Origin: Chryseobacterium sp. KLBC 52
GTDB lineage: Bacteria > Bacteroidota > Bacteroidia > Flavobacteriales > Weeksellaceae
Length of the DNA: 64,000 bases
Direction of reading: 5' to 3'
NCBI RefSeq assembly: GCF_003347605.1
Contig: NZ_QDFZ01000007.1
Coordinates: 1 to 64,000, forward strand
This document shows positions 46,899 through 53,909 of the stretch, piece after piece; the stretch's first letter is position 1; every line of letters starts with the position of its first letter. Below the pieces are notes generated by a model that saw only the letters and a list, made by a program, of their open reading frames with translations, made no database searches and was not told the DNA's origin. Made by a program: the position numbers and the translations under genes.

Positions 46899-48545
46899 TT
46901 ATTTTCTGGTTACTCTTAGTAGGAGGATTATGACTAAAAGGATTGAAAAGATAAAGCCCAGAACTGCTACCAAAGATAGTTCTCCGATTCTTGGTCCGGA
47001 TTCGGAAGAAAAAACAATGGCTGTAGCAATGATATTTGCTCCTAAAACCATAGCCAGAATCAGATTGATGACACTGGATTTGATCAGTTGGTTGGTCTTA
47101 TCAATATTTTTGATTTCGCTGGAAACCGTAAATTTATTTTCATCCAGCTTTTGGAGAACGGAACGGAGTTCTTTCGGAATTTCATCGACATTATCCGTAA
47201 AGTTCATCATGCGGTCCATTCCTGTTTTTAAAAGATTTTTAGGACTGATTTTCTTGGTGAAAATCTTTTTGGTGTAAGGATGAAGACTTTTAACGATATC
47301 AAGATCAGGATTAATACTCCTTCCCACTCCTTCTATCAGGCTTATTCCTTTGAACAGAAGATAGAAATAATCCGGCATATAAAGCCTGTTGTCCTTCAAA
47401 ATATCTTTCATCTTATTGATAATCACCTGTACATTGATATCCTGTAATGATGAGCTGTGTACAAAGTTCAGGATTTCTTCCACATCATTTTCAAACCTTC
47501 TTTCATCCGGAATTTCATAGCTTATGGCCATTTTTTTAAGGGAACGGACTATTTTATGAGCATTTTTGGCGACAAAACTTACGATAAGATTTTCAAGAAT
47601 TTCTTTATCATTGGGCTGAATTTTACCTACTGCCCCAAAATCAATGAAAACAATTTTACCGTCTTTTCTCACTAAAATATTTCCGGCGTGAGGATCAGCA
47701 TGGAAAAATCCGTAGTCTAAAATCTGCGATACAAAAAGCCTCAATCCTGTTTCTGAAACTTTTACAGGATCAATATCATTGGCCAGCAGAACAGATTTGT
47801 CGGTTACTTTAATCCCATCGATAAATTCCATACAAAGAATATTGTTGTTGGAAAATTCTTCGTACACTTTAGGAACATAGGTTTCTTTATTGTTCTTAAA
47901 ATTCAGTCGGAACTGCTGGATATTATTTTTTTCATTGATCAGAGAAACTTCTTCAAGTAAAGATCTTTCAAAGGTAGAAATCGCCTGCTTCAGATTCAGT
48001 TTTTCTCCTATTTCCGAATAGGCAGATATGAGCTTTTCAATATCTTTGATCAACAGTAAATCATCTTCAATGACTGACTGTACATCGGGTTTTCTCAATT
48101 TTAAAATTACAGGACTGCCATCCAGCAGAACAGCTTTGTAAACCTGTGCAATAGAAGCTGTAGCCAAAGGCTTTTTCTCGATTTCACTGAAATAATCTTT
48201 GACGGAAATATTAAACTCAGTTTCCAGCGCTTCTTCTACATCCATATCTACTGTATCCACTTTGTCCTGAAGTTTTTGCAACTCCTGGATCAATTCCGGC
48301 GGCAATAAGTCTTCCCTGTTACTGAATGTCTGCCCCAGTTTTACAAACGTAGGTCCCAGCTCTTCGAGAGCGAGTCTTATTCTTTCGTAAACGGTTCCTT
48401 TTGAAATGATTTCATCTGAATGACCAGAAGTTTCTTCCTGTTTATTTCCATTCATTCTGGCCAGAAGATCTTTGAACCCATATTTACTTAGTACGGAAAT
48501 CAGTCTTGCGGATCTTTTCAGTTTTCTTTGAGGCTTATCAAACAT
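46899..48545 (-). CDS. ABC1/UbiB-family atypical kinase
   Basis: The 548-residue protein belongs to the AarF/UbiB/ADCK family of atypical protein-kinase-like ATPases. The family KxGQ motif is at 69-72 (FVKLGQTFSNR), the Ala-rich nucleotide loop at 128-134 (ATASIAQ), the ATP lysine near K149 (VILKLRKP), the catalytic HADPHAGN near 277 and the metal DFG near 297 (IDFGAVG). Two C-terminal membrane helices (about 485-545) anchor it. UbiB itself acts in quinone synthesis; Bacteroidetes use menaquinone, so the client here is unknown. Confidence 0.9.
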   Translation of the reverse strand: MFDKPQRKLKRSARLISVLSKYGFKDLLARMNGNKQEETSGHSDEIISKGTVYERIRLALEELGPTFVKLGQTFSNREDLLPPELIQELQKLQDKVDTVDMDVEEALETEFNISVKDYFSEIEKKPLATASIAQVYKAVLLDGSPVILKLRKPDVQSVIEDDLLLIKDIEKLISAYSEIGEKLNLKQAISTFERSLLEEVSLINEKNNIQQFRLNFKNNKETYVPKVYEEFSNNNILCMEFIDGIKVTDKSVLLANDIDPVKVSETGLRLFVSQILDYGFFHADPHAGNILVRKDGKIVFIDFGAVGKIQPNDKEILENLIVSFVAKNAHKIVRSLKKMAISYEIPDERRFENDVEEILNFVHSSSLQDINVQVIINKMKDILKDNRLYMPDYFYLLFKGISLIEGVGRSINPDLDIVKSLHPYTKKIFTKKISPKNLLKTGMDRMMNFTDNVDEIPKELRSVLQKLDENKFTVSSEIKNIDKTNQLIKSSVINLILAMVLGANIIATAIVFSSESGPRIGELSLVAVLGFIFSILLVIILLLRVTRK

Positions 48546-48757
48546 AGTGTATCAATAGTAGGTGCAATTTACTCCAAAAATTGTTCCTTTATGAAAACAA
48601 TTATGATAACAACGCTAACGAATAAAATTAAAAATAACAACACATAATCAGTATTTTAAAGAATAAAATACACCAATATCAATAAAAACGCATCATATAT
48701 TGTAAAAATTAATATATTTACAACGTACAAATTAAAACAAATCAAAAGTATTAGAAC

Positions 48758-48922
48758 ATGAAAAATTTACGCAACAACAAACTATCAAGAGAGCAATTAA
48801 AAGGAATTGCAGGAAGCGGAATCATTATCGGAAACTGCTCAAACCAATGCTGCCCTACAGACGGAAGACCAAAATGTCCTGGACTGATCTGTCCTGCTGT
48901 AGTATGCCCTCAGTATATGTAA
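48758..48922 (+). CDS. Cysteine-rich peptide with bacteriocin-like leader (candidate RiPP precursor)
   Basis: This 54-residue ORF was too short for routine calling. The N-terminus MKNLRNNKLSREQLKGIAG looks like the leader of the small 'bacteriocin-like' peptides known in Chryseobacterium (LSREELK-I-xGG type), with AGSG (18-21) where a double-glycine cleavage site is expected. The rest has six cysteines (C27, C31, C32, C40, C45, C50) and five prolines in a short hydrophobic core, CSNQCCP ... KCPGLICPAVVCP. The upstream region is very AT-rich; a strong terminator follows at 48950, so it is its own transcript. No modification or export enzyme lies nearby. A secreted disulfide-rich or modified peptide is inference. 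Confidence 0.75.
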   Translation: MKNLRNNKLSREQLKGIAGSGIIIGNCSNQCCPTDGRPKCPGLICPAVVCPQYM

Positions 48923-48949
48923 GATCAGATTTTATACAGAATTATACAG

Positions 48950-48983
48950 TACCCGAAGAAATATTCTTCGGGTATTTTTTTTG
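48950..48983 (+). terminator. Rho-independent terminator of the peptide gene
   Basis: The 11-bp perfect stem TACCCGAAGAA / TTCTTCGGGTA with a 3-base loop is followed by eight or more T, 28 bases after the peptide stop. Confidence 0.9.
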
Positions 48984-49072
48984 CCCTGAAAAATGCCTAC
49001 GTACCTCAATTTCCGGCACATTATTTCCATCTGGAAGAACAAAAAAATTTATAAATATTTAAATACAACACT

Positions 49073-49717
49073 ATGTTAAAAAAAATTATTTCAGCTGGTC
49101 TTATTGTATCAGCAGTTCTGTTTACAACACAAATAAAAGCGCAGGTAGCATCAGCTCATTCTATTGCCGAAGTAGCCACAAAAGAAATGAGTTATTTAGG
49201 ACTTACAGAATCACAGGTTAGTAAAGTGACAGAGATCAATAAAATGACTGCAGATGCGCTTATTGCTCTTGATAATAAAGCTGGTGATAATAGCAGTTCC
49301 CAGAACAACAAAGTAATTGCTGACGAATTTGTTAGCATCATCGCTCAGCGTCATAAGGCAATGGAACAAATCCTTACTCCGGAGCAAATGGCAATCGTAA
49401 AACAAGACCGGGCAGAAAAGATTGCGCTTTTCAGAACATTGATTATGGTTCCTATTCTGGATCTGACTGAAAGACAAGTTGAGCAGGTATACGAGATCAA
49501 CTTCAAAGGAGTACAGAAAGTTCAGAAAGATTTTGGAAAGCGTCTCAACAAGAAAAATGCGAGTCCTGAAGATGCTGACAGCAATAAGGCAAAAAAGGTT
49601 ATCATCAGTGATTTTAAAGTCCTTGATAAAGATTTTAAAAAGATACTGAGTCCTGAGCAATATGAGGTTTATAAAAACAATCAGGATTTAATCAGAGAAT
49701 CCGCTAAGAAAGAATAG
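49073..49717 (+). CDS. Exported helical protein with two LTxxQ-like repeats
   Basis: The 214-residue protein has a signal peptide (to KAQ at about 23). The mature part is all-helical and made of two similar halves: LGLTESQVSKVTEINKM ... ILTPEQMAIVKQ and LDLTERQVEQVYEINFKG ... ILSPEQYEVYKNN. Each half has an LT-x-x-Q and a later L[TS]PEQ, as in Spy/CpxP-type periplasmic chaperones (LTXXQ family). A role in envelope stress is plausible but not shown. It stands alone between two terminators. Confidence 0.75.
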   Translation: MLKKIISAGLIVSAVLFTTQIKAQVASAHSIAEVATKEMSYLGLTESQVSKVTEINKMTADALIALDNKAGDNSSSQNNKVIADEFVSIIAQRHKAMEQILTPEQMAIVKQDRAEKIALFRTLIMVPILDLTERQVEQVYEINFKGVQKVQKDFGKRLNKKNASPEDADSNKAKKVIISDFKVLDKDFKKILSPEQYEVYKNNQDLIRESAKKE

Positions 49718-49735
49718 TTCGGTCTGGTTGGAAAA

Positions 49736-49783
49736 AAAATATCAGCGGCAGCTCCAATGGAGCTGCCGCTGATATTTTTTATT
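49736..49783. terminator. Very long bidirectional terminator stem
   Basis: A perfect 21-bp stem (49736-49756 with 49758-49778; inner part GCGGCAGCTCCA / TGGAGCTGCCGC) with A and T runs separates two convergent genes. The T run contains the stop codon of the minus-strand gene. Confidence 0.9.
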
Positions 49784-51287
49784 TAAGGTACGTTTCGTAA
49801 AGGTCTTTTCTGCGGTCTTTCATGACCTGAACAGAACCGTTGTGATGGAGATCTTTCAAGAGGTTAAGATCGACATCTACAATCAGGGTCATTTCTGTAT
49901 TAGGAGTAGCCTCCCCTTTCACGGCATTAGATGGGAAAGCAAAATCGGAAGGAGTAAATACGGCAGCCTGTCCGAACTGAATATCCATATTGTTTACCTT
50001 CGGAAGGTTTCCTACACAACCGGCAATGGCCACATAACATTCATTTTCTATGGCTCTTGCAGCAGCACAGTGACGTACTCTCATATAGGCATTCTGAGTG
50101 TCTGTCAGATACGGTACAAACAGGATTTTCATTCCCTGATCAGCCAGAATTCTTGGGAGTTCCGGGAATTCTACGTCGTAGCAGATGACAAGTCCTATTT
50201 TCCCACAGTCGGTATCAAAGACTTTGATTTCATTTCCGCCTTTCATTCCGTAGTACCTTTTTTCGTTCGGAGTAATGTGAATTTTTCTGTATTCATCCAT
50301 ACGTCCGTCACGATGAAGAAGGTAACTTACATTGTACAAATCATTATTATCACTATCAAAAACAGGCATACTTCCGGAAATAATATTCACGTTGTAACTG
50401 ATCGCCAGTTCTGAGATTTTATTTTTGATCTGCTCGGTAAGCTTAGCCAGTTCTATCATACTGTCTCTTTCGGAAAGATTATTGAAAGGAGCCAGCAAAG
50501 GCGTGTTGAAGAGTTCCGGGAACAGGACAAAATCAGACTTATAATCTCCCATCACATTGACAAAGAATTCTACCTGCTCATAAAACGCCTCAATATCTTT
50601 AAAGGTTCTCATTTGCCATTGTACCAATCCAAGACGAATAATGCTGTCCTGCATCGTATTTGGTTTTCTGCTGTAGTAAATGTTATTCCACTGTAGAAGA
50701 ACTGCATTCTCTCTGGAAGCTTCATCCTCCGGAAGATATTTTTTCAGGATTCTTATCGGAAGAAAATTATTGGAAAGCTGGAAAGATAATACAGGATCAT
50801 AGATTTCCTTATCTCTTACTTTTCGGATATATTCTCTTGGAGAAAATTCATGGCTGTATTTGTGATAATTCGGGATTCTGCCACCCAGAACAATAGATTT
50901 CAGGTTTAATAATTCACAAAGCTCTTTTCGGGCATCATAAAGCCTTCTTCCCAAACGCAGTTCACGGAACTCCGGATCGACAAAAACTTCAATTCCGTAG
51001 AGAACATTCCCCGTTGAAGTGTGGGTATTGAATGTGTAATTTCCCGTAATATCGCTGTAGGTATGATCATCTCCAAATTCTTCGTAATTAACGATAATGG
51101 AAAGTGCTACAGCAGCCAGTTTTCCGTCAACGGTGATACAGATCTGTCCGTTCGGAAATATTTTTGTGAGTTTATCAATACTTTTTTTGGACCAGATAGA
51201 TTCCGACATCTGCGGGTAGGCCCTTTTCATCGTTTCCGCCAGCTCATTATAATCCTGAAGGGTCAGGTTTCTTGTTTCTATTTGCAT
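49779..51287 (-). CDS. GNAT N-acetyltransferase fused to a carbon-nitrogen hydrolase
   Basis: The 502-residue protein has a GNAT domain (about 1-200; acetyl-CoA loop FRELRLGRRLYDARKEL at 108-123) and a nitrilase-superfamily domain (about 215-490). The hydrolase triad is complete: E258 in LFPELFN, K335 in YRKIHITP and C369 in LVICYDVEFPE. Such fusions are known in Bacteroidetes and other phyla and are usually listed as bifunctional GNAT/carbon-nitrogen hydrolase proteins; their reaction is unknown. The stop lies inside the terminator T-tract. Confidence 0.9.
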   Translation of the reverse strand: MQIETRNLTLQDYNELAETMKRAYPQMSESIWSKKSIDKLTKIFPNGQICITVDGKLAAVALSIIVNYEEFGDDHTYSDITGNYTFNTHTSTGNVLYGIEVFVDPEFRELRLGRRLYDARKELCELLNLKSIVLGGRIPNYHKYSHEFSPREYIRKVRDKEIYDPVLSFQLSNNFLPIRILKKYLPEDEASRENAVLLQWNNIYYSRKPNTMQDSIIRLGLVQWQMRTFKDIEAFYEQVEFFVNVMGDYKSDFVLFPELFNTPLLAPFNNLSERDSMIELAKLTEQIKNKISELAISYNVNIISGSMPVFDSDNNDLYNVSYLLHRDGRMDEYRKIHITPNEKRYYGMKGGNEIKVFDTDCGKIGLVICYDVEFPELPRILADQGMKILFVPYLTDTQNAYMRVRHCAAARAIENECYVAIAGCVGNLPKVNNMDIQFGQAAVFTPSDFAFPSNAVKGEATPNTEMTLIVDVDLNLLKDLHHNGSVQVMKDRRKDLYETYLK

Positions 51288-52379: not shown

Positions 52380-53909
52380 TTATTCCCACTCAATGGTTGC
52401 AGGTGGTTTGCTTGAAATATCGTAAGCTACTCTGTTGATTCCTCTTACTTCGTTGATGATTCTGCTGGAAACGGTATCCAGGAACTCGTAAGGAAGTCTG
52501 CTCCATGTTGCTGTCATAAAGTCGATGGTGTTGGCAGAACGTACTACAGCAGTATATTCATAAGTTCTTTCATCACCCATTACTCCTACAGATTTTACAG
52601 GAAGAAGTACTACAAATGCCTGAGATACTTTTTCGTAAAGGTCATTTTTATATAATTCTTCGATGAAGATATCATCAGCTTCCTGAAGGATTCTTACTTT
52701 CTCAGCATCTACCGCTCCCAATACTCTGATTCCTAATCCAGGACCTGGGAAAGGGTGTCTGTATACCAGGTGATGAGGAATACCCAATTCTTCTCCTACT
52801 CTTCTTACTTCGTCTTTGAAAAGCTCTCTTAATGGCTCTAATAATTCGAATTCCATATCTTCAGGAAGCCCTCCAACATTGTGGTGAGACTTGATTACAG
52901 CAGATGGTCCGTTGACAGACTGGCTTTCGATAACGTCAGGATAAATGGTTCCCTGAGCTAAGAATTTAGCCCCTTCAATTTTGTGAGATTCTTCGTCAAA
53001 AACATGGATGAATTCGTTTCCAATGATTTTTCTCTTTGCTTCAGGATCGTCTACTCCCGCTAGTTTTGAAAGGAATCTTTCTTTAGCATCTACCATTTTA
53101 ATGTTCATATGGAAATGCTCTCCATACTGATCCATTACTTTTTTGCCTTCATCCTTTCTCAATAATCCCGTATCTACGAAGATACAAGTTAACTGATCAC
53201 CGATGGCTTTGTGGATCAAAACAGCGGCTACAGAAGAGTCTACACCTCCTGAAAGTCCAAGGATTACTTTGTTGTCTCCAACTTTCTCACGGATCTCCTC
53301 AACTGTTTTTTCGATATAGTTAGTCAGTTTCCAGTTTTTTTCTGAGTTACAGATGCTGAAAACGAAATTTTCAAGCATCTTCCCACCTTCTTCTGTATGA
53401 GAAACTTCCGGGTGGAACTGAACGCAGAAGATTTTTTTATCTTCATTAGCGATAGAAGCAATGACTCCTGATTTTGCATTTAATTCAAAACCTGCAGGCA
53501 ATTCTCCTACTTCGTCAAAGTGACTCATCCAAACCACAGAGTTCTGAGTCACTCCTTTTAATAAAGAACTTTCTTTAACGATCTCTAAGTTGGCTTTACC
53601 GTATTCTCCTTTTTCTCCTTTGTTTACTTTACCTCCTAAAAGGTGAGCAGTCATCTGCATTCCGTAGCAGATTCCCAATACAGGAACTCCTTGCTCGTAT
53701 AATTCTTTTTCAACCAGGTGAGCATTTTCTGCATTTACAGAACTTGGTCCACCGGAAAGGATGATTCCTTTTGGCTGCTTTGCTAAAATATCTTGTAATG
53801 GTGTATTGTAAGGCAAGATTTCAGAGTACACGCCCATCTCACGGATTCTTCTTCCGATAAGCTGGTTGTACTGGGATCCGAAATCTAAAATAATAATACC
53901 GTTGTTCAT
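52380..53909 (-). CDS. guaA: GMP synthase (glutamine-hydrolysing)
   Basis: The 509-residue enzyme aminates XMP to GMP. The N-terminal class I glutaminase domain (about 3-190) has the triad C81 (GICYGM), H166 and E168 (QFHPEVS). The ATP-pyrophosphatase domain (about 205-390) has the PP-loop [11 protein letters not shown] near 219-229, and the C-terminal dimer domain ends in PPATIEWE, the usual GuaA end. It is the last gene of the purine cluster in the window; repeats separate it from purD. Confidence 0.97.

Follow-up and report, generated by a model that had tools for sequence, protein, structure and literature searches.

How could a small cysteine-rich peptide be matured and exported when its gene stands alone, and what would such a peptide do outside the cell? 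The question is raised by an open reading frame of 54 codons in the window, i.e., the whole stretch of 64,000 nucleotides analysed here. The original prediction of a six-cysteine peptide was confirmed at the level of the reading frame, because the translation of 48758-48922 is MKNLRNNKLSREQLKGIAGSGIIIGNCSNQCCPTDGRPKCPGLICPAVVCPQYM, 54 residues in length, with cysteines at positions 27, 31, 32, 40, 45 and 50 as claimed. The reading frame is genuine, its conservation being far above chance. The organization of the locus is as follows.

46899..48545, minus strand: ubiB/ABC1-kinase gene (PF03109, 8.5e-68), the divergent upstream flank, outside the system.
48713..48720, plus strand: TATATTTA, a probable promoter element (-7 box) for the peptide gene itself (aligned TAnnTTTA).
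48758..48922, plus strand: complete precursor open reading frame with stop codon, 54 codons, from the translation.
48758..48817, plus strand: leader, residues 1-20 (MKNLRNNKLSREQLKGIAGS), matched by NF047798 at residues 1-19, with predicted cleavage after Ser20.
48818..48919, plus strand: core, residues 21-54, the predicted mature peptide of 34 residues with six cysteines in the pattern kept among orthologues.
48948..48976, plus strand: intrinsic-terminator-like hairpin of 13 pairs followed by a T run.
49073..49717, plus strand: next downstream gene, starting past the terminator, with a sub-threshold match to DUF4890 (26.5 against 29.7).
49779..51287, minus strand: GNAT/carbon-nitrogen hydrolase gene (PF00795), a flank outside the system.

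The hairpin and its T's agree with the claim that the gene has its own terminator, and hairpins of differing sequence were also seen by eye downstream of the stop codon in several relatives. Since ubiB is divergent and the plus-strand gene at 49073-49717 begins past the terminator, a transcript of the gene would have no coding neighbour, again as claimed. The latter gene could be recognised at 9 of the 80 named loci and is thus a less constant neighbour. A TAnnTTTA box about 40 nucleotides upstream of the ATG occupies the same aligned place in 16 of 18 loci; its sequence in the window, TATATTTA, resembles TAnnTTTG, which we take to be the Bacteroidetes -7 consensus. A sigma-70 scan of 48400-49900 gave no site on the plus strand.

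The absence of processing genes within 10 kb holds for recognisable families. The Pfam scan of 16 open reading frames between 39.1 and 58.8 kb, together with the downstream one, gave no match to a peptidase, an exporter of the ABC type or an enzyme that modifies peptides; three of the 16 are without any Pfam match, and the gene at 52380-53909, which lay outside the scan, was assigned by eye as guaA. The ATP-grasp matches near the peptide gene belong to purD. All C39 domains of this genome lie on other contigs.

The spread of the peptide was then estimated by genome searches. With the peptide as query (E<=0.001), 140 of the 173 genomes of the genus gave matches, including at least one at the level of a paralogue (G099, 1.2e-5). 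With the alignment as query (E<=1e-4), 153 of 320 genomes of the family matched, including six that belong to other genera; the cysteine pattern is shared by four of the latter, all from one genus, and the matches in the other two extend over the leader and only the beginning of the core. When 395 genomes were sampled from the order, 36 matches were obtained, 35 within the genus and one, weak, outside the family. The named loci (best 80 of 85) carry the title Chryseobacterium in 79 cases and Weeksellaceae in one, and the peptide of C. aquifrigidense is identical to that of the window. In these 80 loci, the gene is located between ubiB and the carbon-nitrogen hydrolase gene in 69, beside one of the two in three, beside a VKOR gene in seven and elsewhere in one, so that the same chromosomal site is occupied in 72; ubiB was found within 4 kb in 71 and the hydrolase gene in 70. 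Tandem duplicates of the peptide gene are present in several genomes. Two additional family copies with an in-frame stop (G170:C1:1732560-1732730 and G079:C1:366168-366338) are probably decaying duplicates.

An orthologue set was prepared from open reading frames starting with ATG in the collected loci that match the family HMM at E<=1e-6 (n=214). The 197 frames above 50 bits represent 124 distinct sequences; nine more distinct matches below 50 bits were left aside. The exact pattern C-x3-CC-x7-C-x4-C-x4-C, with no further cysteine, is carried by 115 of the 124; in the remaining nine, which represent a sister peptide of the CSQACCPPPGIKRCPN type, the last gap is x3. The cysteine spacing of the core, which had been considered particular, is instead the signature of a genus-wide family and is not specific to this strain. 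Homologues lacking the frame or the cysteines had been named as evidence against the original prediction; all six cysteines are kept in 115 of 115 orthologues with a dN/dS of 0.13, and the prediction stands on this point. Based on 1559 of 2291 pairs (amino-acid identity above 75%, synonymous difference 0.05-0.6), the pooled dN/dS was 0.127, with 0.095 for the core and 0.244 for the leader, two values that are not fully comparable because synonymous sites differ less in the leader than in the core (0.289 versus 0.567). The precursor is under strong purifying selection. The synonymous difference of the leader codons (48758-48817), about half that of the core, perhaps reflects a constraint at the start of the mRNA. 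Of the two alignments used, A1 contains 28 rows, three of them without the first Met, and A2 contains 43 rows, one without it.

The claim that the leader is of a type known from Chryseobacterium bacteriocin-like peptides was supported by the NCBIfam model NF047798 (leader_Chryseo), the best match of the window protein at 21.6 bits, below the cut-off of 23.5. The orthologue L081, with the same core and without a short leader insertion, reached 39.6 bits; L049, which has the insertion and was scanned without its first Met, gave 16.9, and L072 gave no match. Arg11 and Gly19 are invariant in all 115 orthologues, and position 20 is Ser in 59, Asn in 21 and Ala in 19. In C39-exported double-glycine peptides, a short helical leader with Gly-Gly, Gly-Ala or Gly-Ser at its end is expected. 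The leader of the window peptide ends with GS, not GG; cleavage after Ser20 is predicted from paralogues that carry GG at this place. The leader class is already known to NCBI, and the core family passes no NCBIfam or Pfam model.

At E<=10, the same leader model matched 46 sites of this genome, of which 27 scored above the cut-off. Two of the 46 are spurious, one lying in a frame of 438 residues and one reading as only 16 residues. The other 44 are scattered small open reading frames with 2, 4, 5, 6 or 8 cysteines, the number being even in 43. Within the genus, leader_Chryseo matches were found in 160 of 173 genomes. Two adjoining leader peptides (CRGGQLCL...GGGNQP and CSEACCPPPGIKRCPW) are encoded at 2656-2972 of L114 (G000, contig C6); their counterparts sit between the VKOR gene and the six-cysteine peptide gene in six of ten mapped relatives, in which the three genes are grouped, and in this genome the three are dispersed.

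A distant exporter with a double-glycine peptidase had been proposed, and such a C39 exporter is indeed present elsewhere in the genome, singled out from others by the gene order of relatives. Three C39 domains are encoded in this genome. On contig C10, genes for a VKOR-thioredoxin protein of 504 residues, a C39-ABC exporter and an HlyD adaptor stand side by side in that order; the other two C39 domains are on C36, near a radical SAM/SPASM gene, and on C12, near HlyD and a GRASP_w_spasm ATP-grasp maturase. In 14 relatives examined (G014, G047, G142, G112, G031, G133, G143, G042, G010, G130, G162, G020, G118 and G038), VKOR and the six-cysteine peptide gene share a strand, with the peptide gene on the 3' side. 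No other leader gene separates the two in G014, G047, G162 and G020; in the other ten, sister leader peptides intervene, together with an open reading frame of 164 residues in G118. The genes for C39-ABC and HlyD then follow on the same strand in eight of ten maps of 19.5 kb, and the maps L214 and L216 contain no C39 within the mapped stretch. The order is VKOR, peptide, C39-ABC and HlyD in G014 and G047, and an extra leader peptide precedes HlyD in G162 and G020. Since G014 and G047 each gave a single peptide match, the gene occupies a different site there and is not a second copy.

The operon genes of the relatives are 88-91% (C39-ABC), 79-83% (HlyD) and 58-62% (VKOR) identical to those on contig C10, as measured over the aligned parts, some of the C39 frames being read from an inner ATG. 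C39 motifs appear intact by eye. The VKOR protein of C10 contains exactly six cysteines, at 175 and 189, in CRVC (256-259) and in CGFC (368-371) of the thioredoxin domain, and the same set is found in three operon relatives. Such a set is expected of a disulfide oxidase in the membrane that has a thioredoxin partner of its own. A search of the VKOR protein against solved structures gave no match at E<=0.01. Among the matches listed, at least 11 genomes that bear the peptide and one C39 match each (G001, G014, G038, G043, G047, G056, G130, G141, G143, G155 and G165) have this C39 gene 1-13 kb from VKOR, in the same orientation; G088 has the two on separate contigs. The exporter of the window peptide is identified, with fair confidence, as the C39-ABC of contig C10. 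In another genus of the family (L265, 1-3075), two leader peptides were seen by eye between C39-ABC-like and HlyD-like open reading frames, an arrangement with the same linkage.

Taken together, the gene order of relatives and the presence of the machine genes on C10 lead us to propose, with a probability of about 0.7, that the window encodes a secreted peptide with three disulfides, which is cut, exported and oxidised in trans by a VKOR-C39-HlyD machine. The precursor would be transcribed alone, and its leader of 20 residues, of the double-glycine type, would direct it to the C39-peptidase ABC exporter of the C10 unit. The C39 domain would cleave after Gly19-Ser20, the core of 34 residues would cross the envelope with the HlyD adaptor, and the relay of VKOR and thioredoxin would oxidise the six cysteines, giving three disulfides. 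The set of about 44 scattered peptides that have such a leader is probably served by this machine too. Once secreted, the window peptide would most likely act on other bacteria or on kin. Weighing against this proposal are the location of peptide and machine on different contigs in this genome, the GS end of a leader that misses the NF047798 cut-off, the two other C39 exporters that could carry the peptide, and, in the operon maps, the lack of C39 in two of ten and the presence of a PA0069-family radical SAM gene beside VKOR in eight.

The distribution of VKOR among genomes is consistent with the proposed linkage, although it is confounded by descent. VKOR is missing from 12 of the 173 genus genomes, and none of the 12 has the peptide (peptide query, E<=0.001); one of them, G107, gave a weak match to the peptide alignment (1.1e-5). 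No leader_Chryseo match was obtained in 10 of these 12, versus 3 of the 161 VKOR-bearing genomes (Fisher p 3.6e-12). The exceptions without VKOR are G069, with four leader matches and no C39 at all, and G107, with one. C39 is present in eight of the 12 VKOR-less genomes, seven of which are without a leader match, indicating that C39 alone is no predictor of the leader family. For 30 chosen genomes, a guaA tree required about four changes of VKOR and contained 3-4 independent pairs (sign test, median p 0.5). Because of this clustering by descent, the co-occurrence is weak as independent evidence. G086 carries VKOR within a mostly VKOR-less clade and has leader peptides within 6 kb of it, which fits the pattern that joint transfer would give.

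Modification of another kind has to be considered, namely that a RiPP enzyme, either a radical SAM or an ATP-grasp maturase, cross-links the core or modifies it in some other way, and that the peptide is perhaps exported by one of the two other C39 exporters. The maturase genes near the exporters on C36 and C12, the radical SAM gene next to VKOR, and ATP-grasp relatives in two maps (L216 and L218) speak for it. The gene next to VKOR is on the same strand and belongs to the PA0069 family (NF033668; 459 and 463 bits for the two copies scanned, cut-off 360), a model which states no function and which NCBI does not label a peptide maturase; one copy lies at 12457-13500 of L210. No copy was detected in the maps L217 and L218 or in the stretch of 19.9 kb that surrounds the C10 exporter, and the gene is therefore taken as a neighbour rather than a part of the machine. 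With only two Ser/Thr in the core, and with the even cysteine numbers and the VKOR linkage pointing to disulfides, modification by such an enzyme is considered unlikely. Still less probable is binding of heme or a metal through the four Cys-Pro pairs. Pro follows Cys32 and Cys50 in 115 of 115 orthologues, Cys40 in 112 and Cys45 in 111, and some heme-regulatory motifs are marked by Cys-Pro. Against this, the thiols would be oxidised by the linked VKOR machine, and the rule of even cysteine numbers again favours disulfides. The C36 exporter, its maturase (closest to TIGR04463, below the cut-off) and an unmatched protein of 305 residues form a probable separate RiPP locus (L110, 7850-12329), and the C12 exporter with HlyD and the GRASP_w_spasm enzyme (308 bits, above the cut-off) a probable graspetide locus (L111, 6956-16304).

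For the proposed secreted disulfide peptide, two roles were compared. Bacteriocin-like antagonism is slightly favoured, with roughly even odds, over the less probable idea that the product of the same maturation is a kin signal or another conserved extracellular factor and not a killing agent. The latter idea gains from the genus-wide occurrence at one site, from the strong purifying selection on the core, and from the fact that no immunity gene was recognised near the window gene, though such genes are hard to recognise. It is weakened since no receptor or regulator is linked to the peptide gene, since the tandem duplicates and the set of about 44 members would equally suit an antagonistic arsenal, and since killing bacteroidetocins are likewise described, in the accessible part of PMC6671954, as lacking an obvious immunity gene. 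A toxin that diversifies rapidly would not be expected to keep one site across the genus and a strongly constrained core; with the core tighter than the leader, the data suit a conserved secreted peptide no less than a toxin of an arms race. In a bolder and less probable reading, one VKOR-C39-HlyD line would secrete dozens of scattered disulfide-rich peptides, among which the window peptide would belong to the genus core with a conserved extracellular role, as kin signal or niche factor, rather than being a strain-variable toxin. Proposed export in trans would give a coherent reading for many orphan 'bacteriocin-like' genes, in this genome and in the other genomes with leader matches; candidate genes for export and disulfide formation are named, and one well-conserved peptide is singled out. 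If this peptide proves not to kill, such leader peptides would serve more than warfare.

Structure prediction by AlphaFold2 with 43 orthologues gave a mean pLDDT of 59.6 and a pTM of 0.28, with only a leader helix (residues 11-19) at low confidence. The search of the peptide against solved structures yielded only a chance match (E 0.87), PADLOC detected no system, and PLSDB plasmids gave no match at E<=0.01. Among the matches listed from the open PMC literature, to which the search was confined with subscription papers outside its scope, nothing was found on this peptide family or on a VKOR-C39 exporter in Chryseobacterium.

Several known classes were compared and rejected. A lanthipeptide is disfavoured by two Ser/Thr against six core cysteines, with no Lan synthetase recognised nearby, and the Pfam family Bacteroid_pep scored 12 bits against a cut-off of 25. 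The YGNGVxC motif, given for class IIa bacteriocins in the accessible part of PMC6671954, is absent from the peptide on inspection. The chryseoviridin-type graspetides, as far as described in the accessible part of PMC8939145, are likewise Chryseobacterium precursors with multi-copy loci, but are cross-linked by co-encoded ATP-grasp ligases; no cross-linking ATP-grasp enzyme is present at the window locus, and a graspetide was rejected.

Bacteroidetocins, proposed as class IIf bacteriocins, were also compared. By the accessible part of PMC6671954, they share with the system proposed here a short leader of the double-glycine type, paired cysteines, a C39-ABC exporter and a thiol oxidoreductase, and deletion of the thiol oxidoreductase weakened the toxin activity of the C39-exported peptide, which makes a precedent for the pairing of an oxidase with such a peptide. 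Compared by description, they have four cysteines in 42 residues and an adjacent exporter, whereas here six cysteines occur in 34 residues with no local exporter; the oxidase in the relatives of the window peptide is, unlike theirs, a VKOR-thioredoxin fusion. Their four-gene region, described there as including a TM protein, a thiol oxidoreductase and C39-ABC, is absent around the window gene.

Two NCBIfam families are also close. The 'bacteriocin-like protein' of NF047798 has in common with the window peptide the leader region, small size, cysteine-rich core and scattered genes in Chryseobacterium; it differs in that the window copy falls below the cut-off and in that the model covers 18 leader positions and is silent on core and exporter. 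The CCPGW family putative bacteriocin (NF047792) has a similar leader and a cysteine-rich core containing CCP, but its cysteine spacing is different and the window protein scored 15.1 bits against a cut-off of 80. A CCPGW peptide, recognised by its motif, is also encoded in this genome, at C12:352982.
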